This document shows positions 30,899 through 45,596 of a stretch of DNA of 64,000 nucleotides, in pieces. The stretch is taken from assembly GCA_018110825.1 (NCBI GenBank), contig JAGBCL010000117.1, forward strand, positions 62,001-126,000. The letters run 5' to 3'. The stretch is from Oscillospiraceae bacterium. GTDB taxonomy: Bacteria > Bacillota > Clostridia > Oscillospirales > Ruminococcaceae. The notes under the pieces were generated by a model, which worked only from the letters and a program-made list of their open reading frames with translations, did not search any database and was not told the DNA's origin. The translations under genes and the position numbers were made by a program. Position 1 is the stretch's first letter. Every line of letters starts with the position of its first letter.

Positions 30899-31059
30899 AG
30901 CACGCAAAGAAGCCTACAAGAAAGCAGAAAGAGGAGCTTACCCGTTTAAGGCTTGACCCTTTGGAATGGCTGGTGTGTTGTGAAACGGAGCATACCATTA
31001 CCATTTACAACAGATACACAGGAAAAACCTTTACCAAAGTGAAAAAGGAGCGGAAATGA
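30895..31059 (+). CDS. Small DUF6906-like phage protein, 54 aa
   Basis: Overlaps the muB stop as ATGA. Sequence pattern KPTRKQKEEL..LRLDPLEWLVCCET....IYNRYTGKTF matches small conserved proteins of Firmicutes prophages: a basic start, then L.p..WLv and a YxxTGK-type end (DUF6906-like). Function unknown. Very short, so easily missed. Confidence 0.65.
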   Translation: MKHAKKPTRKQKEELTRLRLDPLEWLVCCETEHTITIYNRYTGKTFTKVKKERK

Positions 31060-31060
31060 T

Positions 31061-31246
31061 ATGAAAAAGTACACTGTTAATCTGAAAATTGAAACAAGCT
31101 CCGGCATTGTGAATGATATTTACACTGTCAGAGCTTCCAATCCCAAAACTGCAGAAAACGTCGCCGCAACTCAGGCAATGGACAGCTTCGGACGTGACAA
31201 TGTTATTGAAATTACTGTTCGGGAGGTTTTGCCTTATGCTGGATAA
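31061..31246 (+). CDS. Hypothetical phage protein, 61 aa
   Basis: AAAGGAG before the ATG, one base after the preceding stop. Short beta-alpha protein (MKKYTVNLKIETSSGIVNDIYTVRASNPKTAENVAATQAMDSFG...). Overlaps the next gene by 11 bases. Looks like a conserved small early protein; no function assignable. Confidence 0.65.
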   Translation: MKKYTVNLKIETSSGIVNDIYTVRASNPKTAENVAATQAMDSFGRDNVIEITVREVLPYAG

Positions 31247-31514
31247 GATTGTACGTAGTATCATTTTGATGCTGTTAGGGGCAATGATATACGGCTTCGC
31301 CGGAGCTGCTCTTGAAGCTTACGGAAGCCGCTTGGCAGGAAATATCGGTGGTGAAATATTCGTTATTCCTATGATTTTAGGCTTTATATGGCTTGGATGG
31401 ACGCACGGAAAAGATGTAACAACCCGAAGGCTGACGAAAAAGTATGCAAGAATTTGCGGTGAAGCGTGGGACAGAGGTTACGATGCGGCAGTAAAACACA
31501 ATGATAATGATTAA
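31236..31514 (+). CDS. Small membrane protein of the prophage, 92 aa
   Basis: Starts inside the end of the previous gene with GGGAGG upstream. Two membrane segments: IILMLLGAMIYGFAGAALEAYGS near the N-terminus and IFVIPMILGFIWLGWTH in the middle, then a charged cytoplasmic tail (TTRRLTKKYARICGEAWDRGYD). Could alter the host membrane, for example in superinfection exclusion, but that is speculation. An earlier in-frame start would lack a ribosome site. Confidence 0.7.
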   Translation: MLDKIVRSIILMLLGAMIYGFAGAALEAYGSRLAGNIGGEIFVIPMILGFIWLGWTHGKDVTTRRLTKKYARICGEAWDRGYDAAVKHNDND

Positions 31515-31600
31515 CGGGGAGCTTTCCCCGTCTTAATGCGGCTCGGCATATGCCGAACGGTGACAAGCCCGTAAGAACGCAGAGTCGGACGAAGAATAAT
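31514..31600 (+). other. GC-rich structured non-coding stretch
   Basis: Between two genes: hairpin ACGGGGA-GCTT-TCCCCGT (31514-31531), palindrome TCGGCATATGCCGA (31544-31557), and pairing ACGG/CCGT after it, ending before AGGAGG of the next gene. More GC-rich than its surroundings. May be a processed leader, attenuator or small RNA. Confidence 0.45.
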
Positions 31601-31621
31601 CACACAGGAGGTATATATTTT

Positions 31622-31879
31622 ATGGCATTAGTTAAGTACAAAAAGCTTACCAAATCCAGAGGCGTAACGGTTCCAAAGGATTTGGCGGCAAATGTCGGTC
31701 TGATTGGCGGCACGGCTGTTGACCTTGTGGAATGTGATGAGGGCATCCTGCTCCGTAAGCACGTCCCCAGCTGTGTATTCTGCGGCTCAATTGAGTCGGT
31801 GGATACAGTCAAGGGCAAGGAAGTCTGTGCAAAGTGTGCAGGCGAAATGCGAAAGGAGATAAATGAGAAATATGCTTAA
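31622..31879 (+). CDS. AbrB-like DNA-binding protein with zinc ribbon
   Basis: Residues ~1-45 match a SpoVT/AbrB swapped-hairpin domain (ALVKYKKLTKSRGVTVPKDLAANVGLIGGTAVDLVECDEGILLRKH). The C-terminal part carries CVFCGSIESVDTVKGKEVCAKC, a four-cysteine zinc ribbon. Likely a regulator of phage genes or an addiction-type antitoxin, though no toxin partner lies beside it. AGGAGG at 31606. An in-frame ATG at 31550 lies in the structured region and lacks a ribosome site. 85 aa. Confidence 0.75.
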   Translation: MALVKYKKLTKSRGVTVPKDLAANVGLIGGTAVDLVECDEGILLRKHVPSCVFCGSIESVDTVKGKEVCAKCAGEMRKEINEKYA

Positions 31880-32522
31880 GCCTGAAGAAATTGCTGTCAA
31901 GGTAGACCGAATGGCGGTAATAAAAAAGCAGATGGCAGCTCTTAGGTCGGAATCAGAAACTATTGAAGCGGAGCTGCTCAAGCAATTTGAAGCTGATGTT
32001 GAGAATACCAAGTATCGCACGGTGAAGTATTCAGGCGAAACGGCAAATGTAAATGCTACATATGCTGATACTGTAAAGCTGATTTATCCTTCCGTGCTGA
32101 AAACTATTTTCGGTATGGCGTACAGCGACCTTGTTACAGAGGAAATAAAGTATACGCTTTCCTCCAATGCCAAGAGGCTTCTGGCGGCACTGTACAAAAA
32201 GGAGTATATGCGTGAGATGACTGTTGAACGCTGTCTTAGTCAGATTGCTCCTGATGATAAGACCCTCAAGGTTATGCTCAAGAAGGTCAAGGGTAAAAGC
32301 TTTGAGGGCGACAAGAAAAATCTTGTCAAAATTGCAAAGGTGAACGAAGATGTTGCTTCCGATTACGCATACATTATTGCAGAGGTAGCAGCGTGGGAGG
32401 ACTTCAAGAAGCTTCTTTCCGTAAGCGGTGAGGTTACCGATGAACGTATTGCCAAGGTTCTGGAATACATCAATTCCGCAATCACGGTTGAGGAAACCCC
32501 CAAGATTACAATTACTGAATAA
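31863..32522 (+). CDS. Hypothetical phage protein, 219 aa
   Basis: Overlaps the previous gene by 17 bases, AAAGGAG upstream. N-terminal coiled coil (VDRMAVIKKQMAALRSESETIEAELLKQFEADVEN), then a mixed domain (KYRTVKYSGETANVNATYADTVKLIYPSVLKTIFG...) and a helical C-terminus. Placement after muB is where Mu carries Gam, the DNA-end-binding protein, and the coiled-coil start is similar in spirit, but I see no convincing Gam signature. Function open. A hairpin GGCAGGA-TTTT-TCCTGCC follows at about 32,531. Confidence 0.65.
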   Translation: MRNMLKPEEIAVKVDRMAVIKKQMAALRSESETIEAELLKQFEADVENTKYRTVKYSGETANVNATYADTVKLIYPSVLKTIFGMAYSDLVTEEIKYTLSSNAKRLLAALYKKEYMREMTVERCLSQIAPDDKTLKVMLKKVKGKSFEGDKKNLVKIAKVNEDVASDYAYIIAEVAAWEDFKKLLSVSGEVTDERIAKVLEYINSAITVEETPKITITE

Positions 32523-32529
32523 ACAACAA

Positions 32530-32548
32530 GGCAGGATTTTTCCTGCCT
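32530..32548 (+). terminator. Weak stem-loop after the 219-aa gene
   Basis: AGGCAGGA and TCCTGCCT pair around TTT, followed by TACTTG. The T tract is poor, so partial termination or mRNA processing is possible. Confidence 0.5.
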
Positions 32549-32572
32549 TACTTGTAGGAGGTGAAAACGAAA

Positions 32573-32827
32573 ATGATAAAGTTTTCAGATTATCCGCATA
32601 TCAAGGTATCGCTTACCTTCTATTTTGAAGTAAAAAACGCTGAAATTTATGGCGGTGAAGGCTCAATCGGATATTGCAGTCAGAGTATGGATGTAGGTAA
32701 TATTGATGGCATTTCAGATAAACATATTTCAGATTTTGCAGAAGGAATGGCAAATTTTATGGGAGTAAGTATTGATGATGTGCGTTTTATTACCGAAGCA
32801 GAATATGAAGAAAACACAGAGGATTGA
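32573..32827 (+). CDS. Hypothetical phage protein, 84 aa
   Basis: AGGAGG lies at 32556-32561 and ATG 32573 is the best start; a GTG at 32561 overlaps the ribosome site. Acidic protein with a glycine-rich middle (GGEGSIGYCSQSMDVGNIDGISDKHISDFAEGMANFMGV). Its stop overlaps the next ATG. Function unknown. Confidence 0.65.
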   Translation: MIKFSDYPHIKVSLTFYFEVKNAEIYGGEGSIGYCSQSMDVGNIDGISDKHISDFAEGMANFMGVSIDDVRFITEAEYEENTED

Positions 32828-33333
32828 TGCCTATGGATATGCATGAATTTGTGCAGGGATGTAAAAATTGTGACCCGAGAATAGAGCCTGACCGTGCCGA
32901 TGAGCTGCTCAAGGCTGCCGCCGAACTGGGAGAAGCTATCCTGAAACAGAGGGAACGTAAGGCTAAAGAGCCTGCAATACCCTATCAGCAGATTGTAGAT
33001 GATTACAATTCTATCTGTGGCACGAAGCTTCCGAGGGTAACAAAGCTTACTGACAAGCGCAAACGGGCTATAAAGACGTGCATTGGACAGGGCTTTACAA
33101 TTGAAGAACTGACCGATGCTTTCAGAACGGCAGTATCCACACCGTTCCTGACAGGTAAAAATGAGCGGAGCTGGACGGCAAATTTTGATTTTATAATTAA
33201 GCCTGACAACCTACAAAAGATATGTGAGGGTGCTTACGGTGCACCTGCACAGCCACAGAAAAGTCATTCATATGACCTTGACTTGCTTGTGGCTCACGCT
33301 ATAAACAACACACCTAAAATAAAGGAGGGATGA
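32827..33333 (+). CDS. Phage conserved protein with replication-accessory-like domain
   Basis: 168 aa. The middle (PYQQIVDDYNSICGTKLPRVTKLTDKRKRAIKTCIGQGFTIEELTDAFRTAVSTPFLTGKNERSWTANFDFIIKPDNLQKICEGAY) matches a domain frequent at the ends of phage replication initiators and DnaD-like proteins: a helical block with S.FL.G......W.A.FD.....N..KI.EG.Y. Here it stands alone, so it may recruit replication proteins during replicative transposition (inference). Overlaps the previous stop; AGAGGA precedes the ATG. Confidence 0.7.
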   Translation: MPMDMHEFVQGCKNCDPRIEPDRADELLKAAAELGEAILKQRERKAKEPAIPYQQIVDDYNSICGTKLPRVTKLTDKRKRAIKTCIGQGFTIEELTDAFRTAVSTPFLTGKNERSWTANFDFIIKPDNLQKICEGAYGAPAQPQKSHSYDLDLLVAHAINNTPKIKEG

Positions 33334-33337
33334 TTTT

Positions 33338-33835
33338 ATGACAGCACAGCAAAGAAAGGTTGTTTTCGGTCTTTCAAAGGGATTGAACATTGACAAGGAT
33401 AATCTTCATATGCTTGTCAGTGGTCTGACAGGGTGTGAGTCGCTTACGGAGCTGACCGATGAGCAGGCGGATATTGTTATCCGGGAGCTCCGCAGCCGTA
33501 TGCGTTACAGTACCAATACCAAGCCTGTTGCCCCTCGTCCAAAGGAAAAGCCTGCAGCTGTAGCAGGAATGATGACCTCAGAACAGCAGAAGCTTGCTTG
33601 GCGGTTGATGTACCGCCTGCAGGAACTTGATGTTAAGTCAAAGCTACACGAAAACGGACAGCCTTACACAGTTGGAGAACGTATGGCAGGTGCTATTCAG
33701 ACCATTCTTGGAACAACTGCTATTCCCGGAAAGGATATTTTCAAATGGGTGTCCTTTGAGGACGGTACGAAGCTTATCGAAAGTCTGAAGCGTTACGTTC
33801 GTTCTGCAGAGCGCAAGGCTGAAAAGGGGGCTTAA
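33338..33835 (+). CDS. gemA: GemA/gp16-like phage regulatory protein
   Basis: Matches the Mu gp16/GemA family (DUF1018): an N-terminal QRKVVFGLSKGLNIDKDNLHMLVSGLTGCESLTELTDEQADIVIRELR and later MTSEQQKLAWRLMYRLQELD, both typical. In Mu, GemA modulates host gene expression and DNA topology early in infection. AGGAGG lies 11 bases before the ATG. 165 aa, family length. Its presence with MuA, MuB and Mor confirms the Mu-type early module. Confidence 0.85.
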   Translation: MTAQQRKVVFGLSKGLNIDKDNLHMLVSGLTGCESLTELTDEQADIVIRELRSRMRYSTNTKPVAPRPKEKPAAVAGMMTSEQQKLAWRLMYRLQELDVKSKLHENGQPYTVGERMAGAIQTILGTTAIPGKDIFKWVSFEDGTKLIESLKRYVRSAERKAEKGA

Positions 33836-33837
33836 AT

Positions 33838-34164
33838 ATGATTTTAACAGCACCGATGGCTCGGCGGATTGTGGGTGAAGCGGTTACCAAAAAAGTCCTT
33901 ATACTTACAGTTACCGAAAGAGAACAGCGTGACCTTAAGCACACTCTGACTGACCATATCAAAGAAATGAGGATATGGGAGCTGGTATCACGGCAGACTT
34001 ACCGTTATCACATCCACATCAGTGGTATGGAATCTATTTGCATAATGGATTACGCAACGTGGACAAAGGAAAGTCAGAATTGTTTTTATGGTACGGTTTT
34101 TGTTACCAGCAAGCATTTGCTTGACCTTCCGAACGTAAGTGGTGAGCCGATTTTATTGGGGTAA
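33838..34164 (+). CDS. Hypothetical phage protein, 108 aa
   Basis: Two bases after gemA. Basic, beta-alpha protein (MILTAPMARRIVGEAVTKKVLILTVTEREQRDLKHTLTDHIKEMRIWELVSRQTYRYHIHISGMESICIMDYATWTK) resembling small phage DNA-processing accessory proteins only in general character. No motif. Function unknown. Confidence 0.65.
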   Translation: MILTAPMARRIVGEAVTKKVLILTVTEREQRDLKHTLTDHIKEMRIWELVSRQTYRYHIHISGMESICIMDYATWTKESQNCFYGTVFVTSKHLLDLPNVSGEPILLG

Positions 34165-34168
34165 GCCT

Positions 34169-34387
34169 ATGAAGATGGAAGATGTAAAGGGTACTCTGGG
34201 TAAGCGTGTGCATTACAGCAGCAAAAAGATGTTTATTGATTCGGATTACATTTTCAGGGCGTATATATTGCGGATTTCTGAAAATGGCAAGAAGTTTCAA
34301 CAAGCTGAACTGAAGGATTTATGTGAAAACAGTGTCATTATTGTTCCGCTGGAGGAGGTGGAGGTAATTGAAACGCCGCAAGACTAA
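34169..34387 (+). CDS. Small phage protein, 72 aa
   Basis: Start ATG 34169 follows the upstream stop by four bases; GGGG is the only ribosome site. The protein is a small beta domain (MEDVKGTLGKRVHYSSKKMFIDSDYIFRAYILRISENGKKFQQAELKDLCENSVIIVPLEEVEVIE), similar in layout to SH3-like or Tudor-like folds. Function unknown; lies in the GemA-Mor interval. Confidence 0.6.
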   Translation: MKMEDVKGTLGKRVHYSSKKMFIDSDYIFRAYILRISENGKKFQQAELKDLCENSVIIVPLEEVEVIETPQD

Positions 34388-34428
34388 AAGCCTGTAACTT
34401 AGAAATGATTACTTGAAAGGATGATTTG

Positions 34429-35118
34429 ATGAATATTAATTTAGGACTTATTTGTCAGGAAGAAATGAATAAAATTGTGCAGGAAGGTTACATAGAAGCC
34501 CAAATCCGTGCTTCTCTTGAAAAAACAATAAAAAGCGCAATAGAAGACGAATTCGAGGGATATAACGGAACAGTGAAAAAAGCTGTTCAGGCTGCTGTAA
34601 AAGAAAGCGTACAGATTGACACAGAAAAAATTGACGTACCATTGTATAATCGTTATATAGTTTCTGTGATTAAAGAGGTACTGGATAATTATATAACGCT
34701 TGAATGTAAAAACAAAATAAAGGACAGCATCGAAAAAATACTTGTTCAGGAGATTAAACCGTCGTACACGCTGCAGGAAATTATTAATGAGTTCAAATCT
34801 TATTACTGTGATGACAAAAAATATGGTGACGAAATGACTTTACATATCAAAAAAACCACATTCGGTTCTTGGATTATAGCTATGGACGAAAAACAAGATG
34901 TGGAGTTTTCTGATTGTGACGTGAGCTTCAGAATCAGCGATGTACTTCATACTGCTTGTAATATAAAAGCTCTCGGTTGTGAAAAAGATTCCGATTGTAT
35001 TTCCTGCTATAGCTTTGAAAGGTTTTTACATCGCATAGCCGCAAATAACAGTAAAATTGAAGTTGGCGACGACTTAGTTGAGTTTTATAACCTTAGCTAC
35101 ATTGAAGATGAATATTAA
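34429..35118 (+). CDS. Hypothetical phage protein, 229 aa
   Basis: AAAGGATG before ATG 34429. N-terminal half is helical and charged (QEEMNKIVQEGYIEAQIRASLEKTIKSAIEDEFEGYNG, then KAVQAAVKESVQIDTEKID), the C-terminal half mixed with several cysteines. No known motif. Codon use appears more AT-rich than the surrounding phage genes, and it may be an accessory insertion between GemA and Mor. Confidence 0.6.
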   Translation: MNINLGLICQEEMNKIVQEGYIEAQIRASLEKTIKSAIEDEFEGYNGTVKKAVQAAVKESVQIDTEKIDVPLYNRYIVSVIKEVLDNYITLECKNKIKDSIEKILVQEIKPSYTLQEIINEFKSYYCDDKKYGDEMTLHIKKTTFGSWIIAMDEKQDVEFSDCDVSFRISDVLHTACNIKALGCEKDSDCISCYSFERFLHRIAANNSKIEVGDDLVEFYNLSYIEDEY

Positions 35119-35136
35119 TATACGGGGGTAATAACA

Positions 35137-35259
35137 ATGGGCAGAATGATTATTGCATCAGAAACAAAAACGTACTATGAATTTGACGGTATAAGACTTG
35201 TATATGAGTATGGCGAGCTTATAGGCTGGTATCGTCCCGACTTGCCGGAGGTGGTTTAA
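35137..35259 (+). CDS. Very small phage protein, 40 aa
   Basis: ATG 35137 behind GGGGG, ending one base before the next ATG. Sequence MGRMIIASETKTYYEFDGIR then LVYEYGELIGWYRPDLPEVV, beta-rich and aromatic. Tight packing with its neighbours and a ribosome site support it as real. Function unknown. Confidence 0.5.
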   Translation: MGRMIIASETKTYYEFDGIRLVYEYGELIGWYRPDLPEVV

Positions 35260-35260
35260 A

Positions 35261-35413
35261 ATGAAAAGGAACTGCGGAAAATGCAAGGCGTATGATAAAA
35301 TCAGGGACAGATGTATTTTAGAATATAAGCAGAAGAATGGCATACCACTTGAAGAGTGCCCGAAGCCTTTATCATGGAAAAAGGTTGATGAAGAAAGAAA
35401 ACGGAAAGGATGA
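35261..35413 (+). CDS. Very small cysteine-containing phage protein, 50 aa
   Basis: GGAGGTGG precedes the ATG inside the end of the previous gene. NCGKCKAYDKIRDRC and EECPK give four cysteines that could bind one zinc ion. Basic C-terminus (KKVDEERKRKG). It overlaps the Mor gene start as ATGA, so coupling is likely. Function unknown. Confidence 0.55.
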   Translation: MKRNCGKCKAYDKIRDRCILEYKQKNGIPLEECPKPLSWKKVDEERKRKG

Positions 35414-35739
35414 GTAAAATGAGCCTGCTGGACGAAATTACACTTGATGACCTTGACCCAGAGCAGAGAGAGCTTGCGGAGTGCATAGGGCTGGAACCGT
35501 ATAAGAAACTGCTCAAAAACTATGCAGGCTCACCTATTACCATAAGAATGCCTAAAAGAGTTACTATGCCGCTCAGAAACAAGGAAATCCGCAAGAAATT
35601 CAATGGATACAATTATCGTGAGCTTGCCAAAGAATATGATTTATCGGAAGCTTCGATACGAAAAATCGTTTCAAGCGAAATTATAAGGGTTAAAAATGAA
35701 CCTTTTGAGGGACAAATTTCCTTGTTCGAAAAAATTTAA
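35410..35739 (+). CDS. mor: Mor-family middle transcription activator
   Basis: 109 residues matching the Mor/C activator family: an acidic start (LDDLDPEQRELAECIGLEPYKKLLKNYAGSPITIRMPKR) followed by a C-terminal helix-turn-helix (NKEIRKKFNGYNYRELAKEYDLSEASIRKIVSSE). In Mu, Mor activates the middle promoter for late gene control. A terminator lies directly after it, so the early operon ends here and a Mor-dependent promoter probably lies downstream, before 35,848 or further right (inference). ATG 35410 overlaps the previous stop. Confidence 0.9.
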   Translation: MSKMSLLDEITLDDLDPEQRELAECIGLEPYKKLLKNYAGSPITIRMPKRVTMPLRNKEIRKKFNGYNYRELAKEYDLSEASIRKIVSSEIIRVKNEPFEGQISLFEKI

Positions 35740-35783
35740 TTATAATAAAGCTTTTGATTTTTACAATAGCGTGCTCAATTAAT

Positions 35784-35828
35784 AATGGTGTATGATTAAA
35801 CTGTAAGGTTTGGTTATACACCATTTTT
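35784..35828 (+). terminator. Terminator after mor, end of early operon
   Basis: AATGGTGTAT / ATACACCATT (35784-35793 with 35816-35825) around a 22-base loop, then TTTATATTTT. The loop also contains a self-complementary AAACTGTAAGGTTT. Confidence 0.75.
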
Positions 35829-35847
35829 ATATTTTGGGGGTGCGGAT

Positions 35848-36126
35848 ATGGAGTTTTCGGATATTGCAATGACAATAATCACAGCATTAATCGGCGTTAT
35901 AGGTTTTTTTGTGAAAAAAGCTTTTGACAGCCTTGATGATAAAGCTACCAAAGAGGAGCTTAACGAGCTCAAAAAGGATGTTGAAGCCAACAAAACGTCC
36001 ATCGGTAAAATTAAGGACAATTATCTCACAAAAGAAGATTTTTTTCGTGAACAAAGTAAGACGGATAAAAAGCTTGATAAAATAATGGAGATTTTAATGG
36101 AAATAAACAAAGGAGGCAAAACGTAA
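35848..36126 (+). CDS. Membrane-anchored coiled-coil phage protein, 92 aa
   Basis: One membrane segment near the N-terminus (IAMTIITALIGVIGFFVKKAF), then a charged coiled coil (SLDDKATKEELNELKKDVEANKTSIGKIKDNYLTKEDFFREQSKTDKKLDKIMEILMEI). The layout resembles the Mu gp25/DUF2730 group and XhlA-like proteins. GGGGGTG precedes the ATG. First gene after the early terminator, so middle-class. Role may be in lysis or membrane attachment. Confidence 0.65.
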   Translation: MEFSDIAMTIITALIGVIGFFVKKAFDSLDDKATKEELNELKKDVEANKTSIGKIKDNYLTKEDFFREQSKTDKKLDKIMEILMEINKGGKT

Positions 36127-36449
36127 TGAACACAAAAGATATGATGCAGAAAGCCCGTGCCGCTAATTTTGTAAGCAATAACGGCAAGGTGCTTCGTGGT
36201 GTAAATATGCTGCGTATTGATTTCAATAAACTTGAGTCCATTCGTGTGGCTCTTGGATTTGATGATGACGATTTTGCTGACAATATAAACTATCTCGTTG
36301 AATCGGGATATATCAGAATTCGCCACTGTGACACTCATAAGGAAATTGAGCTTGCTGATTACCCGATGGATGAGATTGAGGGTAAGCTTACACAGAAGGG
36401 CATACAGCTGCTTGCAGGAGTTATTGAAGACCCGTGCATTACCGTTTAA
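36126..36449 (+). CDS. Hypothetical phage protein (Mu gp26 position), 107 aa
   Basis: ATG overlaps the preceding TAA by one base; GGAGG upstream. Likely winged-helix: residues ~35-105 (DFNKLESIRVALGFDDDDFADNINYLVESGYIRIRHCDTHKEIELADYPMDEIEGKLTQKGIQLLAGVIEDP) look like a helix-turn-helix with a beta wing, as in small phage packaging or regulatory proteins. It occupies the place of Mu gp26 between gp25-like and gp27-like genes. Confidence 0.65.
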   Translation: MNTKDMMQKARAANFVSNNGKVLRGVNMLRIDFNKLESIRVALGFDDDDFADNINYLVESGYIRIRHCDTHKEIELADYPMDEIEGKLTQKGIQLLAGVIEDPCITV

Positions 36450-36461
36450 GGCGGTGGCGAT

Positions 36462-37019
36462 ATGGCAAGGAGAAGAAACCGCAAGCATTCAAAGATTGAT
36501 TTGCTTGAACCTGCTGTGAAGTCAGAGATAGAGTCTATGATTTTATCGGCAGAATTTACTTACAAGGATATTGTTGAGTACATAAGAGACAGCACCGGGG
36601 AAATGATTTCTCAGGCGGCGGTCTGCAGATATGCAAAGGGGCTTTGCGAGTCCCTTGAAAATATCCGCTTTGCACAGGAGACGTTCCGAGCGGTAAATGA
36701 TGAGCTGAACCGTAATCCGAATATTGATACTACAGAGGGTATTATTCAGATTTTATCGCATATGCTGCTTACCAACATCCAGCAGCTCTCTGAGGAAGAC
36801 TTCAAGGGTGTTGACCCGTTGAAGCTTCTGAAACAGGCTTCCGACCTTGTAAGAACGGCGGCGTACAAGCGTAACCTTGATATCAAGAACAAGGAGCTTT
36901 CCGAAATGGGCTTTGACGCTGTCAAGGATAAGGTGTTCAATGCTATGGCTACCGATAATCCGGAACTTTATGCTCAGTTCGTTGAGTACATCAATTCCAA
37001 GGCAGGTGATGAAACGTGA
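36462..37019 (+). CDS. Mu gp27-like protein (DUF3486), DNA-packaging related
   Basis: 185 aa with the DUF3486 pattern: basic start MARRRNRKHSKIDLLEPAVKSEIESMILSAEFTYKDIVEYIRDSTGEMISQAAVCRYAKGL (a helix-turn-helix), then a helical part (LKLLKQASDLVRTAAYKRNLDIKNKELSEMGFDAVKDKVFNAM). In Mu-like phages gp27 is thought to be the small packaging subunit next to the large terminase. Here the large terminase is separated from it by the NusG-like gene and a second terminase-small-like gene. GGCGG/GAT precedes ATG. Ends overlapping the next GTG start. Confidence 0.8.
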   Translation: MARRRNRKHSKIDLLEPAVKSEIESMILSAEFTYKDIVEYIRDSTGEMISQAAVCRYAKGLCESLENIRFAQETFRAVNDELNRNPNIDTTEGIIQILSHMLLTNIQQLSEEDFKGVDPLKLLKQASDLVRTAAYKRNLDIKNKELSEMGFDAVKDKVFNAMATDNPELYAQFVEYINSKAGDET

Positions 37020-37504
37020 TTTACGTTCTTCAGGTGCAGACCAACAAGGAACTTGATGTTTCCGCCGCTCTTATCAGAGCAGGTATTCAGGCTGACGTTC
37101 CCCGTGAACGTATCCTCATCCGTAAGGGCGGTCTTTGGAGTAAAATGTTAAAGCTGCTCTTTCCCGGATATGTTTTTGTTACGGTTGACTATAACGCAGA
37201 GGTTTACCACATAATCAAATCCGTTTCGGGAGTGATTCGCTTTCTTGGTGCTCCGACACCGCTTCCTGAGCACGAGGCAGATATGATACGCTGGCTTTCC
37301 AACGGCGGCGAAATCATAGAACAGTCGCTCATCAGGACGGACAGCGAAGGAAACGTTATCGGATATGAGGGTTTCCTTGAGGGTAACGAGGATAAAATCA
37401 AGCGGCTTAACCTGCGGCAGAAGAAAGCTTCTGTTGAGGTCAAGTTCGGCGGAAAAACACACAGAGCAAATCTCGGGATTGATTTTCCCGAAGACAAGAC
37501 TTAA
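37016..37504 (+). CDS. NusG/LoaP-like transcription antiterminator of the prophage
   Basis: 162 residues. The N-terminal ~95 are a NusG NGN domain: MIYVLQVQTNKELDVSAALI, LFPGYVFVTVDYNAEVYHIIKSVSGVIRFLG, PLPEHEADMIRWLS. The C-terminal part is KOW-like: GFLEGNEDKIKRLNLRQKKASVEVKFGGKTHRANLGID. The pattern is closest to specialised paralogues such as LoaP rather than housekeeping NusG, which lacks the GxxEGxxxxIKxxxxRxxxAxV run. These bind RNA polymerase and let it pass terminators of one operon. GTG start overlaps the previous stop. Two terminators and several hairpins lie immediately downstream, before the late genes, so this is probably the late-operon antiterminator (inference). Confidence 0.82.
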   Translation: MIYVLQVQTNKELDVSAALIRAGIQADVPRERILIRKGGLWSKMLKLLFPGYVFVTVDYNAEVYHIIKSVSGVIRFLGAPTPLPEHEADMIRWLSNGGEIIEQSLIRTDSEGNVIGYEGFLEGNEDKIKRLNLRQKKASVEVKFGGKTHRANLGIDFPEDKT

Positions 37505-37581
37505 ACAATCGGACAGGGTTGATTCGTTCCCCTGCTCCGAAGTTTCGGTTATATATCCAATCACATAAACGGACGGAAAAT

Positions 37582-37621
37582 TTCCGAAATCCGAATGGCG
37601 AAGCACGCCCGAATTTCGGAA
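37582..37621 (+). promoter_or_regulatory. Long stem-loop downstream of the NusG-like gene
   Basis: TTCCGAAAT pairs with ATTTCGGAA (37582-37590 with 37613-37621), and inside it GGCG pairs with CGCC (37597-37600 with 37606-37609). A two-part hairpin just after an antiterminator gene is a candidate RNA recognition element. It lies in the 380-base gene-free gap 37505-37884. Confidence 0.5.
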
Positions 37622-37647
37622 GCAAGAATATACCCGTTTAAAAGCCG

Positions 37648-37685
37648 TTAAAATGCGTTAGAGGGGCATTTTAATAGTTTTTGTG
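37648..37685 (+). terminator. Late-region terminator 1
   Basis: TTAAAATGC / GCATTTTAA (37648-37656 with 37666-37674), loop GTTAGAGGG, then TAGTTTTTG. Confidence 0.75.
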
Positions 37686-37711
37686 ACAAGTTATACCCTA
37701 AAACAATAAAA

Positions 37712-37757
37712 CGGCTTACAGCGCATTTTTGTGCGTGTTTTGTAAGCCGCATTTTTA
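37712..37757 (+). terminator. Late-region terminator 2
   Basis: CGGCTTACA / TGTAAGCCG (37712-37720 with 37741-37749) with an inner GCGCA-TTTTT-GTGCG hairpin, followed by CATTTTTATA. Then follow a perfect hairpin GCTTGAAAT-AA-ATTTCAAGC (37775-37794) and a long GTTTTGC / GCAAAAC pairing with an inner TTTCC-TTAC-GGAAA before the next gene. Confidence 0.75.
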
Positions 37758-37884
37758 TACCTTGGAGGTGGGCAGCTTGAAATAAATTTCAAGCCCGAGT
37801 TTTGCTTTCCTCACTATAGTTCGGAATTTCCTTACGGAAACCGCAAAACATTGGAGAAAGGAGGATATATTCCCTATCGGGAAT

Positions 37885-38364
37885 ATGATTAAAATGAACC
37901 CCGTAAAAAAATCTTGTATAAATGCTCTGGCGGAGGCAATACAGTCCGCCGATAATACTGAAAAGGAAGTCGGCAGCACTGAAACAGTTGCCGACTTTGT
38001 TAATGTCCTGCTCAACGAGCCTGATAAAAAGAAGCGCAAGCAGATGATGAAGGATTTTTCCGAACGTAGGAAGGATGTTACAAAATTCCTTGCTGAAAAT
38101 GAGGAGTTAATCTCCGCTGAAGCGGAGATGGCTCTCATCGGTGTGGCGGTCGGTTCTACGCACACTGAAACGGAGATTTCATACAAAGGCGGAAGACGTC
38201 AGGTTACTACCAAAACCAAGAAGGTTATGCCGAACGCCAATGCTCTGAACTTCCTCCTGAAGAACCGTATGCCTGACAAGTACAGTGACAAGCCTGTGGG
38301 TGATGTGGAGATTGAGGATGTTTCCGACATTGAGGAGGAGCTTTATGGCAAGAGTGAAGAGTAA
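37885..38364 (+). CDS. Terminase small subunit-like protein
   Basis: 159 aa. The C-terminal NALNFLLKNRMPDKYSDK is the hallmark of SPP1/PBSX-type small terminase subunits, and the gene overlaps the large subunit by 20 bases. The N-terminal half is helical (CINALAEAIQSADNTEKEVGSTETVADFVNVLLNEPDKKKRKQMMKDFSERRKDVTKFL). GAAAGGAGGA lies unusually far (about 20 bases) before ATG 37885, and the gap contains a hairpin ATATTCCC-TATC-GGGAATAT that would bring it near. First gene of the late operon. Confidence 0.75.
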   Translation: MIKMNPVKKSCINALAEAIQSADNTEKEVGSTETVADFVNVLLNEPDKKKRKQMMKDFSERRKDVTKFLAENEELISAEAEMALIGVAVGSTHTETEISYKGGRRQVTTKTKKVMPNANALNFLLKNRMPDKYSDKPVGDVEIEDVSDIEEELYGKSEE

Positions 38365-39688
38365 GAAAACTATACCGTACAAATTCTCTGATAAGCATAA
38401 GGAATACATACGCCGCTGTCGGGAATGTGTTTACAACATTGCTGAAGGAGCAGTCAGAGCCGGTAAGACGGTGGATAATGTTCTTGCATTTTGCTTTGCA
38501 CTGTGTAACAGCCCTGACAAGCTTCACCTTGCTACAGCTTCCACGGCTCCGACGGCAAAGCTGATTATAGGTGACTGCAACGGCTTCGGTGTGGAACATT
38601 TCTTCCGTGGTCAGTGCCGCTGGGGAAAATATAAGGGGAATGAAGCACTTATCATCTGCGGCAAGGCTACCAAGTATAAGACAAAAATCGTTATATTTGT
38701 CGGCGGTGCAAAGGCTGACAGCTATAAAAAGTTCCGTGGTACATCTATCGGTATGTGGATTGCAACGGAAATCGACTTGCATCACGAGGAAACAATCAAG
38801 GAAGCTCTTACCCGTCAGGCGGCAGCAAAGTGCAGAAAGCTTTTCTGGGACTTAAACCCCGGAAGTCCTTTTGCAATGATTTACAAGAGCTACATTGATG
38901 AGTATGCAAGGAAGGATGCTGCAGGCGAGCTCAGAGGCGGCTACAATTATGCGCACTTCACTATTTATGACAACATCAACATTACAGACGAACAACGTGA
39001 GAATTTTATTTCACAATATAATCCTTTATCAATTGAGTATCGCAGAAAAATCAAAGGTGAACGTTGCGTTGCTGAAGGTCTTGTGTTCCAGCAGTTTGCG
39101 GATAATCCAGAACGCTTCAAGCTCAGCAGGAAATATAATGGCGTGAAGTTCATTTCCATTGGAGTTGACTTTGGTGGAAACAAGTCCAAGACAACATTTG
39201 TTGCTTCGGCGATTATCGGAAGCTTTCAGAAGCTTGGTGTTATTGCCGACCACAAGATACAGGGCGGCAAGGGCACAATTGACCCCGATATGGTAAACCG
39301 TGAGCTGATTGACTTTTATAAATACGTGCAGAGCTTGTATCCGAATTCAAAGATTATGTACATATTCTGCGATAACGAAGCTCAGATGGTTATTAACGGT
39401 ATTCGTGCAGCATTCACAAGGGCACATATTCCTGTTGCAATCCGTGACTGCTATAAGGGTGCTATAAATAACAGAATTTACGCTCTGAACGGTCTTATGA
39501 CTCAGGGGCGTTTCTTTGTTAATGAGGAATGCAGCAATGTCATTGACAGCCTCAGTTCTCAGGTATGGGACGCTAAGGAAGTTACAAAGGATGTTCGTCT
39601 TGATGACGGTACCTTTGACATTGACACAGCTGACGCACTGGAGTATAGCTTCAGCAGTTTCATAAAACAGTTTAATATTTCGGCATAG
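38345..39688 (+). CDS. terL: Terminase large subunit
   Basis: DNA-packaging motor. Walker A-type GAVRAGKT at residues ~35-42, the coupling region LHLATASTAPTAKLIIGDCNG, an acidic strand IGMWIATEID, then the nuclease domain with VDFGGNKSKTTFVASAII near 275 and further acidic residues (FCDNEAQ; DIDTADALEY). Pattern is of the PBSX/SPP1 (Terminase_3/6) type. Start ATG 38345 has GAGGAGGAG at good spacing and overlaps the small subunit. 447 aa, normal length. Confidence 0.9.
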   Translation: MARVKSKKTIPYKFSDKHKEYIRRCRECVYNIAEGAVRAGKTVDNVLAFCFALCNSPDKLHLATASTAPTAKLIIGDCNGFGVEHFFRGQCRWGKYKGNEALIICGKATKYKTKIVIFVGGAKADSYKKFRGTSIGMWIATEIDLHHEETIKEALTRQAAAKCRKLFWDLNPGSPFAMIYKSYIDEYARKDAAGELRGGYNYAHFTIYDNINITDEQRENFISQYNPLSIEYRRKIKGERCVAEGLVFQQFADNPERFKLSRKYNGVKFISIGVDFGGNKSKTTFVASAIIGSFQKLGVIADHKIQGGKGTIDPDMVNRELIDFYKYVQSLYPNSKIMYIFCDNEAQMVINGIRAAFTRAHIPVAIRDCYKGAINNRIYALNGLMTQGRFFVNEECSNVIDSLSSQVWDAKEVTKDVRLDDGTFDIDTADALEYSFSSFIKQFNISA

Positions 39689-39704
39689 AAAGGAGTGATA
39701 AGGC

Positions 39705-41174
39705 TTGAACAGTCAGTTAATTGAGTGGCTTAACCAAAAGTATGGCTACGAAATTTCAGAAGAATATTACAAGCACATTGATATTTGGCTTAATTGGTGG
39801 CGAGGTTATTACCAGCCGTTTCATCGTTACCATTTCAGCAATGGCGAAATGATTATTGAACGTGATTTATATACTCTTAAAATGGGTAAAAAGATTTGTG
39901 AAGACTGGGCTTCTGTTCTGCTTAACAGCAAGACTCACATTAAAATTTCCGATGATAAGACAAATCTTTTCGTTCAGGGTACCCGTGAAACAATGGGTGT
40001 CCTCGGTGCAAATTCGTTCTGGACAAAGGGCAACCGTCTGATTGAAAAGGCTTTTGCTACAGGAACGGGTGCTGTTACAATTCACGTTTCCAAAGTTAAG
40101 CTTCAGGAAGACGGTGAAAAGCTGTCGGTGCAGACTTCTCCTGATGCGGAAATACAGCTGAATTATCTTTCGGCAGAATTCATTATTCCGCTGTCGGTAG
40201 ATAATGACAGGATTACAGAAGCGGCATTCGCTTCGGAAACAGTTTCCAAGGGCAAGAAGCATCTGTTGTTGGAAGTGCATCGTCTTAATGAAAACGGACA
40301 CTATGTCATTGAAAATTATCGTTTTCTTGCAGAAAATGACAAGCTGACAGAGGTACCGCTTGCTGACACTATGATTTCCAAATTTGATACGGGTGCTGCT
40401 GTTCCGTGGTTTTCGATTGTCATGCCGAACATTGAAAACAACGTTGAGGACACCAACGGCTTGGGCTTGTCGATTATTCACGGTGCAATCGACGCACTCA
40501 AGGCTGTTGATATGTGTTTCAATAATTTTTGCTCCGATATTTACCTTGGACAGAAAAAGGTTTTTATGGAGAAAAAGCTTGTAAAGATTGATGATGACGG
40601 TACACCGATTGCTCCCGATGATGTAAATCAGCAGCTTTTTACCTTTATTGATTTCCCATTGGATAGCGCTGACACAAAGAAATTCATTATGGAGTTCAAC
40701 CCTGCACTTCGTGTTGATGAGAACACAAAGGCAGTTCAGTCAGCGCTTGATTATCTTTCTTTCAAGTGCGGTCTTGGCAACAAGCATTATCAATTTAATT
40801 CGGGTACCGTTGTTACTGCAACGCAGTACACAGGCGACCAGCAGGACTTAATCCAGAACGCAGACAAGCATTACGCTGTTGTGGAGCAGTTCCTCATTTC
40901 GCTTGTTCGCAGTATTATCCATATCGGCAAGCACCTTATGGGTGCTGATGTTGCCGAAAACGCTGATGTTGAAATTGATTTCGACCGCAGCGTTATAATT
41001 GATGATACGGCGGAACGTCTGCAGGATATGCAGGAAGTCAGGGACGGCTTAATGGCGAAGTGGGAATACCGTGTTAAGTATTATGGTGAAACAGAAAGTA
41101 AGGCAAAATCTAAAATTGCTGAAATTGAAGGCAATCAGAGCGACGATGAGTTGATGGGATTTGGTGATGCCTAA
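39705..41174 (+). CDS. Portal protein, SPP1 gp6-like
   Basis: 489 aa forming the dodecameric DNA gateway of the capsid. Pattern fits the SPP1 gp6 family: an N-terminal aromatic-rich helix region (EEYYKHIDIWLNWWRGYYQPFH), KMGKKICEDWASVLLN, later NGLGLSIIHGAIDALKAVDMCFNNFCSDI and YQFNSGTVVTATQYTGDQQDLIQNADKH, the conserved stem. The start is TTG 39705 with AAAGGAGTGA 5 bases upstream; no ATG fits. Follows terL as expected. Confidence 0.88.
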   Translation: MNSQLIEWLNQKYGYEISEEYYKHIDIWLNWWRGYYQPFHRYHFSNGEMIIERDLYTLKMGKKICEDWASVLLNSKTHIKISDDKTNLFVQGTRETMGVLGANSFWTKGNRLIEKAFATGTGAVTIHVSKVKLQEDGEKLSVQTSPDAEIQLNYLSAEFIIPLSVDNDRITEAAFASETVSKGKKHLLLEVHRLNENGHYVIENYRFLAENDKLTEVPLADTMISKFDTGAAVPWFSIVMPNIENNVEDTNGLGLSIIHGAIDALKAVDMCFNNFCSDIYLGQKKVFMEKKLVKIDDDGTPIAPDDVNQQLFTFIDFPLDSADTKKFIMEFNPALRVDENTKAVQSALDYLSFKCGLGNKHYQFNSGTVVTATQYTGDQQDLIQNADKHYAVVEQFLISLVRSIIHIGKHLMGADVAENADVEIDFDRSVIIDDTAERLQDMQEVRDGLMAKWEYRVKYYGETESKAKSKIAEIEGNQSDDELMGFGDA

Positions 41175-41225
41175 AATCACTGCTCACTGCCGTTCGCACT
41201 TTTATTCTAAAAGCGAGGTGATTTA

Positions 41226-43145
41226 ATGCTGACACCTACACAGCTTGACAAGCTTCCCGAACCTATGATAAAATTAATGGCAGAGCTTCAGGATGAAATC
41301 ATTTCCGATATATGCAGACGAATTACCAAGGCGAACCTGCTTACTCCGACTGCTGAATGGCAGCTTGAAAAGGCTAATCAGCTTACGCTTTCTTCCCGTG
41401 AGGTAAAGAAACGCATTGCCGCAAAGCTTAAAGTGCAGGAAAAGCTTGTTAAGGAGCTGTATACTGAGGCTGTCAGAACTGCCATCGACGAGGACGCTAA
41501 AATCTACAAAATGGCGATTGCCGAAGGTATTCTTTCGGACAATTACCGTGAAAAGCTTACTACATACACTCGTTCCGTTGCTTTTTCCAACGCTGTGAAG
41601 CGTGGACTGAAGAACACGAACGGGCTTATGCGCAACCTTACCAACTCGGCGGCAGCGGCGGCGAACCGTCAGCTGTCTGATGTGCTGGATTTGGCATACC
41701 TTAAGGTTACAAGCGGTGCTTTTACTCCGCAGGACGCAATCTTTGAGGCTGTAAAGAAGCTTGGCGCAGAGGGTATAAAGTGTGTAAATTACGCTTCGGG
41801 ACGTTCCGACCAGCTTGATGTTGCGGTTAGACGTGCGGTTGTTACGGGTATCGGCAAGACCTGCTGTGACCTGCAGCTTGACCTTGCGAACGAAATGGAC
41901 TGTCAGCTGGTGGAGGTTTCTTCACATCTGGGCGCACGTCCTTCACACGCTGAATGGCAGGGCAAGATTTACAGCTTGGTTAAGGGACATCCGAGGTACC
42001 CATATTTCTATGATGCAACAGGCTACGGCACAGGTGACGGTCTTGGCGGCTGGAACTGCAGACACTCGTTCTTCCCGTACTTCGAGGGGCTTTCCTCTCC
42101 TGCAAATGCTCCTGATTTCACAAAATCGGAGAATGAACAGGTTTATAACGACACCCAGAAGCAGAGAAGCTACGAACGAGCAATCCGACAGTCGAAGCGT
42201 GAGCTTGCGGCTCTTGACAGCGCACGGAAGGAAGCTTCTCCCGAACTCAAAGCCAAGCTTGACAGAGAGTTTGAACGGAAGTCCGTTACGCTTAAGAACC
42301 GTGAGGCAAGACTTGCGGAACATCTCAAGGCTACGGGGCTTCTCCCTGATAATTCCCGTGTTCGGGTTGATGGGTTTGGCAGAAGCGTTTCGCAGAAGGC
42401 GGTTTGGGCGGCGAAAAAGTCTTACTCTGTTGAGTACAGCCCGTCAGGCAAATTTAATCTCATTGATGAGGTTAAGGATTTGGCTGGTGTTGTAAAGGGA
42501 AAAATAAAGTCTGTAAAATATGCAGATTTGTCAGACAGCTTTAAAAACAGCTTTGATGAACAGCTGAAAAGATGTGAGCCAAATGTGCGAAAGCTGTTGG
42601 AAATGTGGCTGAATGATACTGACATATATATTACCGATAGCAAAAGCTCCTTTTATCTTAAGGAACTTGACTACATTGAACTTAATATTGGCAGACCTCC
42701 AGCTGCTTTATCCCATGAACTCTTTCATAGAATTGATTTCAAGAATAATATTACTAAAAACAGTATTTTCGAGAAATCATTGAAAAAGGACTTCCAAGCA
42801 ATCAGTGAAGCAAGCGGCGGAGATATTGTACAATATTTAGTACATAAATATCCGAATGCTTTTAGAACTAATCATTCAGGAAATATCCGATTAAAGAAAG
42901 AGTTTAATTGTATTTCGGATATTATAAGCGGAGTGACACAAGATGATATTAATTTAGGATTTCATCATGACAAAGAATACTGGGAAGAAGACACACGAAG
43001 GGTTGCAAGTGAAGCTTGGGCAAATTATGGTCGTATATATTACGAAAACAATACTGAAGTTATTGCAATGCTCGAGGAGTTGTTCCCAACATTCGCATAT
43101 AATACCGCACGAAGGGTGGAAAAATTAACAAATGTGGGAAGGTAA
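41226..43145 (+). CDS. MuF-type minor capsid protein with C-terminal HExxH domain
   Basis: 639 aa, longer than ordinary minor capsid proteins. Residues ~1-340 are the phage minor capsid protein 2/MuF head part: helical start, then VVTGIGKTCCDLQLDLANEMDCQLVEVSSHLGARPSHAEWQGKIYSL and GTGDGLGGWNCRHSFFPYFEG, the usual signature. A charged linker follows, then from ~430 a separate domain with HELFH at 497-501 and a possible third zinc ligand E596 in ASEAWAN, a zincin metallopeptidase pattern. Phage MuF proteins with variable toxic C-termini are a known class of polymorphic toxins; the C-terminus here fits that layout. The DNA of the C-terminal domain is more AT-rich than the head part, suggesting module exchange. 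Confidence 0.82.
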   Translation: MLTPTQLDKLPEPMIKLMAELQDEIISDICRRITKANLLTPTAEWQLEKANQLTLSSREVKKRIAAKLKVQEKLVKELYTEAVRTAIDEDAKIYKMAIAEGILSDNYREKLTTYTRSVAFSNAVKRGLKNTNGLMRNLTNSAAAAANRQLSDVLDLAYLKVTSGAFTPQDAIFEAVKKLGAEGIKCVNYASGRSDQLDVAVRRAVVTGIGKTCCDLQLDLANEMDCQLVEVSSHLGARPSHAEWQGKIYSLVKGHPRYPYFYDATGYGTGDGLGGWNCRHSFFPYFEGLSSPANAPDFTKSENEQVYNDTQKQRSYERAIRQSKRELAALDSARKEASPELKAKLDREFERKSVTLKNREARLAEHLKATGLLPDNSRVRVDGFGRSVSQKAVWAAKKSYSVEYSPSGKFNLIDEVKDLAGVVKGKIKSVKYADLSDSFKNSFDEQLKRCEPNVRKLLEMWLNDTDIYITDSKSSFYLKELDYIELNIGRPPAALSHELFHRIDFKNNITKNSIFEKSLKKDFQAISEASGGDIVQYLVHKYPNAFRTNHSGNIRLKKEFNCISDIISGVTQDDINLGFHHDKEYWEEDTRRVASEAWANYGRIYYENNTEVIAMLEELFPTFAYNTARRVEKLTNVGR

Positions 43146-43314
43146 ATATGATGATGCTATGGATAAATTATTCAGAGCATATAATGACAAATTCAACTGT
43201 GAACCTGATGAATATGCTGAAATTGCATATGAGCTTATGACGTATGAAGAATTTTCGGGATATATACACGAATGTCTTGAAAAAGGCGTTTCAATACCAC
43301 ATGTTGTAAAGTAA
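43132..43314 (+). CDS. Small acidic protein, candidate immunity to the MuF C-terminus
   Basis: 60 aa, starting 14 bases before the end of the MuF-type gene. Acidic (MWEGKYDDAMDKLFRAYNDKFNCEPDEYAEIAYELMTYEEF...), compact and helical. Overlap and small acidic character are what an immunity gene for a C-terminal toxin would show. Ribosome site GGTGG is about 12 bases upstream, so coupling to the upstream gene is likely. Function is inference from position only. Confidence 0.55.
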   Translation: MWEGKYDDAMDKLFRAYNDKFNCEPDEYAEIAYELMTYEEFSGYIHECLEKGVSIPHVVK

Positions 43315-43317
43315 CAT

Positions 43318-43347
43318 AAAGCACTCTCTCGCAGGGTGCTTTTATTA
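43318..43347 (+). terminator. Terminator after the MuF/immunity pair
   Basis: AAAGCAC / GTGCTTT (43318-43324 with 43336-43342), then TATTATT. Short, so possibly partial. Confidence 0.6.
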
Positions 43348-43370
43348 TTGCCTTGAAAGGAGTGAACGAA

Positions 43371-43613
43371 ATGGATGAATGTACTACAAAAGAGTATATT
43401 AATTCGCCTTGGGTAGACGAAACTCATAAAATTACAAACAGCAAAGAAAAAATAGTGCTGGAATCCTGCGATGGAAAAACACACTTGTATATTAACGGCG
43501 TTGAAATTAAAATGGTTACGAGTGTTTGTTTTACACATGACGTTGATGATGAGGATACTCCTGTACTTGTTTATTCAAAGCACATACCAAAGGAAACAAA
43601 AACAGAAAATTAA
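43371..43613 (+). CDS. Small hypothetical protein, 80 aa
   Basis: AAAGGAGTG before ATG 43371. Acidic, beta-rich protein (MDECTTKEYINSPWVDETHKITNSKEKIVLESCDGKTHLYINGVEIKMVTSVCFTHDVDDE...). It lies between two terminators, after the MuF-type gene and its neighbour, so it belongs to the exchangeable toxin/immunity block rather than to the capsid genes. A second immunity gene or orphan accessory gene; unproven. Confidence 0.6.
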   Translation: MDECTTKEYINSPWVDETHKITNSKEKIVLESCDGKTHLYINGVEIKMVTSVCFTHDVDDEDTPVLVYSKHIPKETKTEN

Positions 43614-43625
43614 TACCGTTAAAAT

Positions 43626-43669
43626 GCACTTGAAATAACGTTAGAACGTTATTTTAAGGTGCTTTTTTT
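43626..43669 (+). terminator. Strong terminator before the scaffold gene
   Basis: GCACTTGAAATAACG pairs with CGTTATTTTAAGGTGC (one wobble, one bulge) around TTAGAA, followed by seven T. A strong terminator inside a late operon again implies antitermination or an extra promoter downstream. Confidence 0.85.
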
Positions 43670-43697
43670 ATACTAATTTTTTAAGGAGGAAACCACA

Positions 43698-44246: not shown

Positions 44247-44266
44247 TTAACAAGGAGGAATTTATT

Positions 44267-45250: not shown

Positions 45251-45266
45251 TTGGAGGAATATATTT

Positions 45267-45596
45267 ATGTTTACAATACAGATGGCTTCCGGATTTTCCG
45301 GTGTACACATGGGACTTGTATTCGCTAATGGTAAGGCACAGACCAATGACGCTTTCCTTGCGACACGTCTTAAGAGCAAAGGATACACAGTTACCGCTGA
45401 AAAGGTCGCTGATGATACGAAGGCACCTGAACAGGTGGAAAAATCCGAAGGTAAGAAGAAAGGCGGCAAGAAAGATAAGGAAAAGGCTGCACCTGCTCCT
45501 GAACCTACACCTGCTCCTGAGCCCGAACCTACTGTTGACCCTGAGTCCAGCGAACCGCCTGACCTTCCTCCCCTTGACAACGAGGGTGACGAGTAA
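45267..45596 (+). CDS. Small phage head protein with Pro/Glu-rich tail
   Basis: 109 aa. The N-terminal ~45 residues (MFTIQMASGFSGVHMGLVFANGKAQTNDAFLATRLKSKGYTVT) form a compact domain often seen after capsid genes. Then a Lys-rich stretch and repeated PAPEPTPAPEPEPT, likely exposed and flexible. May be a decoration or head-completion protein. GGAGG before ATG; stop shares a base with the next ATG. Function inferred from position. Confidence 0.65.
   Translation: MFTIQMASGFSGVHMGLVFANGKAQTNDAFLATRLKSKGYTVTAEKVADDTKAPEQVEKSEGKKKGGKKDKEKAAPAPEPTPAPEPEPTVDPESSEPPDLPPLDNEGDE

Follow-up and report, generated by a model that had tools for sequence, protein, structure and literature searches.

The late genes of a Mu-like phage found in an Oscillospiraceae genome are, with good probability, switched on by a phage-encoded LoaP-like antiterminator, which would be recruited by an RNA element related to RAGATH-28 (Rfam RF03052) and would carry RNA polymerase through terminators into the late operon. 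Processive antitermination of this operon had been proposed in a preliminary description of the same DNA, and it is well supported by comparison, because gene order, a LoaP-type fold, a covarying UNCG hairpin, an ops-like core, terminators and co-occurrence within the host family all argue for it; the read-through itself we infer. What is new, as judged from sequence, is that a phage element is tied to the Rfam family RF03052 and at the same time to a NusG paralog and a terminator. RAGATH-28, a curated family for which no statement of function was found in the literature searched (its likely source paper lies outside that search), would thereby gain a partner protein and a target operon. No paper on RAGATH together with NusG, and none naming RAGATH-28, was found in the literature searched, and passages of PMC8191799 and PMC11507696 do not mention RAGATH-28 by name. 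NusG-paralog antitermination would also be extended from antibiotic and capsule operons of the host to the late-gene switch of a group of gut phages, which suggests how these Mu-like phages of Firmicutes get by with only one Mor/C activator. The evidence is comparative throughout and the phages are related, so that counts of genomes are not independent trials.

The NusG paralog and its place in the phage

The window, by which we mean the whole analysed stretch of 64,000 nucleotides, belongs to a 3.1-Mb host genome and contains the phage at approximately 25-58 kb. Its assignment to the Mu-like transposable phages follows from the presence of a Mu-type transposase, an AAA partner, GemA, gp27 and Mor. 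The genes are ordered as CI-type repressor (minus strand), Mu transposase, AAA partner, GemA, Mor/C activator, gp27-like gene and NusG paralog, and from position 37885 on terminase, head, tail and lysis genes were identified with Pfam and PHROG, namely TerS-like, TerL, portal, minor head, scaffold, major head, tape measure, tail fibre and endolysin. Named relatives of the locus belong to Ruminococcus, Faecalibacterium, Gemmiger, Ruthenibacterium and other Oscillospiraceae or Clostridia. The gene for the Mu gp27-like, small-terminase-like protein (36462..37019, plus strand; PF11985, E 2.8e-14; PHROG 426) shares its last 4 nt with the start of the NusG paralog (37016..37504, plus strand; GTG start, 162 aa), which is followed by a gap of 380 nt (37505-37884), the first late gene, which is small-terminase-like (37885..38364, plus strand; PHROG 309, E 3e-14), and the large terminase (38285..39688, plus strand; PF03237; PHROG 2). 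The order given in the preliminary description, i.e. a NusG/LoaP-like gene, a gene-free stretch of 380 nt and then terminase and structural genes, is therefore confirmed by open reading frames, Pfam and PHROG. The terminator it had placed near 43,626 inside the late operon was recovered by the terminator scan as a terminator-like hairpin at 43629..43658 (plus strand), 5' of the scaffold gene.

That the protein has an NGN and a KOW-like domain, as was claimed from the start, is borne out by Pfam (NusG, E 6e-16), PHROG 6386 'transcription antiterminator' (E 3e-26), NCBIfam and an AlphaFold model (pLDDT 93.7, pTM 0.86) in which the NGN is accompanied by a beta-barrel C-terminal domain of KOW type. 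This predicted arrangement agrees with the LoaP-type RNA complex 8f5g, and LoaP is both the nearest family model and the nearest solved fold. Against the NCBIfam LoaP model NF033641 the protein scores 111.9 bits, which is under the cut-off of 125, and it is therefore named LoaP-like; all 20 members of set A1 match the same model at E <= 1e-5. According to passages of PMC12691694, the RNA-reading residues of LoaP are E40, R41 and I143. When aligned with 8f5g, the residue taken as LoaP E40 is Ile in the window paralog and the following Arg is kept (R36), this arginine being present in at least 90% of sets A1 and A3. Relatives of the paralog which are as low as 31% identical keep the DNA pattern 3' of the gene.

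The RNA element and the gap before the late operon

RF03052 matches the gap at 37513..37604 on the plus strand with P1, a CATA-type linker, P2 and a AUGGCGAAGC tail, and the match spans the full model (1-85). It is the single hit in the genome (35.1 bits, E 2.6e-4 genome-wide) and, since its score stays under the gathering threshold of 45.3, the element is named RAGATH-28-related; at the same place in relatives 5 of 13 loci pass this threshold, with up to 78.6 bits, and it is exceeded in 7 of the 17 host-family genomes with a match. The curated consensus consists of P1, loop, linker, P2 and the AUGGCGAAGC tail, as we had drawn the element independently beforehand. Rfam types RF03052 as 'Gene; sRNA', whereas the phage copy is associated with a NusG paralog and with a terminator. 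RAGATH-28 reportedly goes back to a 2017 paper, and RAGATH stands for RNAs associated with genes associated with twister and hammerhead ribozymes. A type II hammerhead ribozyme (27569-27637, 59.5 bits) precedes the Mu-type transposase gene of the phage by about 220 nt, which fits this origin of the name.

P1 (37509..37540, plus strand) carries the UNCG-type loop UUGAUUCGUU, and across relatives its arms vary while the loop is fixed as UYGAUNCGNY. In an arm-swap test on 44 loci, including L098 and L125 in which P1 is not safely placed, own arms gave -12.6 kcal/mol and swapped arms -7.4 kcal/mol, with none of 10,000 permutations as good. The own arm was the single best partner in only 14 of the 44 loci, perhaps because many arms are GC-rich. 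Covariation in the 44-row alignment points in the same direction, with 53 cells changed on both sides versus 27.5 in shuffles (0/500) and a covariation score of 0.405 versus 0.175 (0/500), the result being less clear for pairs with both-side change and for further pair types (11/500 and 19/500 shuffles). The P1 structure also exceeded all six slid versions in cells paired, both-side changes and covariation score, which was not the case for pair types. P2 (37570..37593, plus strand) ends 3 nt before GGCGAAGC; its own arms gave -8.7 kcal/mol versus -5.4 kcal/mol for swapped arms in 43 loci, again with 0 of 10,000 permutations as good, and its end lies 2-3 nt before GGCG in 38 of 43 loci compared to approximately 8 in shuffled segments.

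The ops-like GGCGAAGC core (37597..37604, plus strand), with a putative pause at 37606, is recognized by conservation of GGCGNAGC. For this motif the homologues found by protein are the fair test, because loci recruited by motif share its letters by selection. Among the 30 such homologues with a gp27-like gene upstream, the window being included as L091, GGCGNAGC lies at most 480 nt past the stop in 28, or in 28 of the 29 assessable, since L022 is cut by a contig end; it is truly absent within 480 nt of the stop in L136, which is also of gp27 type. The motif was found in none of 40 housekeeping-like NusG genes. Nine other loci lack a gp27 match; the motif is present in four of them (L121, L122, L125 and L010, the last on a cut contig) and absent from L123, L124 and L126-L128. 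In the 44 rows the variable loop base of UNCG is U in 34, A in 6, G in 3 and C in 1, and that of GNA is A in 40, G in 2, C in 1 and U in 1, with invariant neighbours in both; 3' of the core any base is followed by a pyrimidine (43/44 rows) and then a purine (42/44). A pseudoknot of the P1 loop (UUCGUC) with GGCGAA pairs on paper and was rejected, as the variable bases of loop and motif do not covary; GATACG, GATGCG and GATCCG loops were all found, read by eye, together with GGCGAAGC.

It was also considered whether the element is a mere 3' part of the paralog gene, which is ruled out by a distance of 172-263 nt between the two in L012, L015, L016, L017, L020 and L023. Between paralog and element all of these except L023 have a frame 60-75 codons long that encodes 4-5 Cys. 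At four other loci (L006, L007, L010 and L038) the paralog has the TGA within the P1 loop (GGTTGATTCG) as its stop codon, so that the ribosome ends in the hairpin, and at three (L011, L014 and L059) P1 is itself part of the coding frame. A search for UNCG hairpins near non-phage LoaP-like genes yielded one weak candidate in the available flanks of 9 loci.

Compared with shuffles, the folding of the whole gap has a z of -4.9 (0/100) and that of the stretch 37640-37760 a z of -3.7 (0/200). The latter comprises the intrinsic terminators T1 (37640..37682), which is also supported by terminator comparison, and T2 (37706..37758), both on the plus strand. Two intrinsic terminators and a two-part stem-loop had been noticed here at first sight; they are real, and the stem-loop, that is P1 with P2, is conserved. 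The same gene-terminator arrangement recurs in relatives, with terminator hairpins between the element and the next open reading frame in 33 of 51 loci versus 7.4 expected from shuffles, a count in which the window is included and near-duplicates are kept. The script misses long branched hairpins such as T2 of the window, which are visible by folding.

GTTTAAA-type repeats, 10-11 nt apart, lie at 37636..37662 on the plus strand and are overlapped by T1. From this count onward L098, L125 and the near-duplicate L010 were left out, and 61 such repeats were found between GGCGNAGC and the terminator in 48 loci versus 1.9 expected from mononucleotide shuffles, with spacings of 10-11, 21 and 31 nt in relatives. 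This helical phasing suggests DNA binding or repeated polymerase contacts. A conserved ATACC box 5' of the terminator is not claimed, the pattern being present in only 15 of 43 loci. In a scan of positions 30000-46000 no sigma-70-like site was seen on the plus strand between 31360 and 39856, which is weak evidence given that the scan performs at about chance level. It gave 35 sigma-70-like sites versus 29.9 in shuffles and 16 terminator-like ones versus 13.2, and because these counts are so close to shuffles a simple scan of this kind proves nothing by itself.

Co-occurrence of the paralog and RAGATH-28

The host family was sampled with 297 genomes. Of these, 17 have the paralog (E <= 1e-15) and 17 have RAGATH-28 (E <= 0.001, stricter filters), and the two sets coincide completely. 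Each of the 19 RNA hits of this sample has a paralog match 12-287 nt upstream of it on the same strand, and among the 20 paralog matches the RNA is missing only behind a fragment that sits at the end of a contig (G254:C6). Scanning viral contigs for the motif gave 21 loci. The full P1 loop, defined here as TYGATNCG with the flanks of the element, stands upstream in 8 of them, and precisely these 8 encode the paralog; in the remaining 13 both are absent, although a looser flag (GATNCG within 160 nt) marked 4 of these 13 too. When genomes of 84,980 species were scanned for loop and motif, 18 loci were obtained. The paralog lies upstream in 17, 10 of which are on contigs already in the family sample and not independent, and the 18th, L060 from Bacterium HR24, is without it. 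Five phage records matched the protein: three cover at least 90% of the paralog and have RAGATH-28 behind it with 46.9, 43.1 and 38.5 bits, one above the gathering threshold, and two are weak matches annotated as NusG in an Acinetobacter phage.

RAGATH-28 was found in 3 of the 348 genomes in a sample of the phylum (the genome of the window, G848 and G945), all with the paralog. At two loci of G945 (L169 and L171) two tandem hits, 82 nt apart, stand behind one paralog. Outside the family sample the match between paralog and RNA is looser, as judged from L098, L136 and G877. The last has two strong paralog matches and no RAGATH-28 match in the phylum sample, and its locus L120 has P1 and GGCGCAGC. 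Among nine loci examined, L098, L125 and L136 have no RAGATH-28 match; L098 is of gp27 type and GGCGAAGC is present there. The gp27-linked paralog of L136 has in place of RAGATH-28 a giant terminator hairpin (L136:1978-2160, z -3.8), which is perhaps a second design of the same switch; the only relative of its protein that was found is L202, a 100% match. L122 and L125 have LoaP-like genes with GGCGAAGC still behind them and no gp27 neighbour detected, and the signal may reach beyond these phages.

In 48 loci other than the window, a gp27-like gene was found upstream in 43 and Mor in 27, and downstream a TerS-like gene in 20 and TerL in 19, numbers which are limited by locus length and divergence; presence of the paralog upstream of all 48 elements is true by construction and is not evidence. 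Four genomes of the family sample (G005, G006, G064 and G104) have a gp27 match above the Pfam cut-off and neither the paralog nor RAGATH-28. A NusG relative was not found in three loci of these genomes (L172-L174) or in a second gp27 locus of G142 (L200), and none of these loci has a P1 loop behind gp27. At L172 and L173 gp27 is directly followed by the next long frame, and GGCGCAGC or GGCGGAGC strings sit inside frames. By its position this frame in L172 was a candidate large terminase, which was not accepted as the Pfam match is only sub-threshold. Within one phage lineage, co-occurrence alone is not enough to tell function apart from an inherited neighbourhood.

Proposed mechanism, alternatives and related systems

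In the mechanism that we propose, transcription reaching the end of the LoaP-like paralog, the last gene before the late operon, would make the RAGATH-28-related RNA, whose UNCG hairpin P1 would bind the paralog in the way that LoaP is bound by dfn. RNA polymerase would be held by P2 together with the consensus-pause-like GGCGNAGC-NYR while the paralog loads, and in the non-template strand exposed there a GNA mini-hairpin may form that would be very similar to the ops of RfaH. Polymerase modified in this way would pass T1, T2 and later terminators, and the late operon would be transcribed. Early in infection or in a lysogen there would be too little paralog, and transcription would stop at T1/T2. 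Protein-RNA binding, pausing, the non-template hairpin, read-through and timing are all steps that we infer from sequence. The elemental pause consensus has G at -10 and a pyrimidine-purine step, which is fitted by the G at -10 and the pyrimidine-purine after the core, and P2 would sit 12-13 nt behind the putative pause 3' end, a spacing close to that of pause hairpins. A pause and a non-template signal are thus plausible from core and spacing, and the position of GGCGNAGC 2-3 nt behind P2 suggests a combined signal of RNA hairpin and pause or non-template DNA. More tentatively, and with rather less than even confidence, RAGATH-28 could be a double-keyed recruitment signal, with a UNCG hairpin in nascent RNA as for LoaP and an ops-like GNA hairpin in the non-template strand as for RfaH. 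No description of such a signal was found in the literature searched. If the ops-like reading is true, LoaP-type reading of RNA and RfaH-type reading of DNA can be halves of one recruitment scheme.

The late genes could instead be served by a late promoter, with a Mor/C-type activator binding the phased GTTTAAA repeats, the terminators ending the upstream operon and the paralog as an accessory. Repeats 10-11, 21 and 31 nt apart do fit one face of DNA, a Mor/C homologue is encoded upstream and activator-dependent promoters can be without a -35 visible to a scan, but a promoter at the repeats, which overlap with T1 and precede T2, would meet a terminator. This, together with the empty interval in the sigma-70 scan, weak evidence as it is, and with covarying RNA hairpins and a bond to the NusG paralog which a promoter would leave unexplained, makes it unlikely. 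Still less probable is that RAGATH-28 acts in trans, as a small RNA derived from the 3' end of the paralog transcript, with T1/T2 as its own 3' end and its neighbourhood due to shared inheritance. The Rfam type, the usual position of the element in front of a terminator-like hairpin and the hammerhead ribozyme elsewhere in the phage are in its favour; nevertheless, co-occurrence with the paralog holds across proteins down to 31% identical, the element stays ahead of the late operon even at loci with another small frame in between, and a UNCG hairpin is a known type of LoaP ligand in passages of PMC12691694. We give equally little credence to a negative loop in which the paralog, like housekeeping NusG at some sites in Bacillus, strengthens pausing or termination and so limits its own operon or the late genes. 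According to the same passages, Bacillus NusG enhances pausing at many sites, and the ops-like pause core is conserved here, yet in fold and sequence the paralog is nearest to LoaP, a read-through factor, and a brake without release before all structural genes would be odd.

The closest known system to the antitermination that we favour is LoaP with the dfn hairpin of Bacillus velezensis. As described in passages of PMC12691694 (mBio 2025), a LoaP leader has a UNCG hairpin, a pause and an intrinsic terminator, in this order, before a long operon, and read-through of intrinsic terminators by LoaP, both in vitro and in vivo, depends on the hairpin and is helped by the pause. An NGN plus KOW paralog and this order are common to both systems, the phage leader being composed of the UNCG hairpin, P2 with GGCGNAGC and terminators; the UNCG hairpin that LoaP has in the leader of its target operon is represented by P1 with UUGAUUCGUU and its covariation. 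The hairpins are likened by the description of dfn, and the phage has in addition a covarying P2, GGCGNAGC and phased repeats. LoaP serves antibiotic clusters whereas the phage paralog would serve a late operon, and LoaP is described without a non-template DNA signal, unlike the reading proposed here. Such a signal is known from RfaH, which, as given in passages of PMC5995543, reads the ops loop G4-A7 of the non-template strand, closed by C3:G8. GNNA and GNA loops form a class of very stable DNA mini-hairpins in passages of PMC4686876, and the stability of a phage GNA hairpin is taken from this source because folding of GGCGNAGC with the DNA parameters of ViennaRNA gave no hairpin for any N. 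The ops sequence GGCGGTAGCGTG itself is not present, the window having GGCGAAGCACG. Both ops and GGCGNAGC have GGCG..AGC around a tiny loop, the phage core having one loop base fewer, and a pause-like Y-R step after the core and a NusG paralog are also common to both. The C-terminal domain of the phage protein is predicted as a beta-barrel and not as the alpha-helical hairpin of RfaH, which is one predicted state, another being possible. We know of no RNA hairpin requirement for RfaH.

Antitermination of a phage gene block from a site near its start is also known from lambda N-nut and Q-qut and from HK022 put. The phage resembles them in this respect and differs in its agent, as N and Q are not NusG paralogs and put RNA needs no phage protein. 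In Mu the late genes are switched on by C at late promoters. The preliminary description had antitermination acting in place of C, which has to be modified, because a Mor/C-family activator (35410..35739, plus strand; PF08765, E 2.4e-12; PHROG 836/532 'late transcriptional activator') is encoded upstream of the gp27-paralog block, and antitermination is likelier as a second step. This is the only PF08765 match in the genome; the gene is kept in 27 of the 48 relatives, many of which are too short to reach it. The single Mor/C-family activator of the phage lies in the part of the genome that matches its place in Mu, and where the second step of Mu is C at late promoters, that of the phage appears to be antitermination. 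It is likelier that a single Mor/C-type activator acts on the NusG-paralog block and that antitermination replaces the second activator step of Mu, the simplest scheme being an order of repressor, early genes, Mor/C-type activator, gp27 and paralog block, antitermination and late genes. Directly after the Mor/C gene, at 35784-35825, there is a terminator-like hairpin of 19 pairs, which would part Mor/C from the gp27-paralog block.
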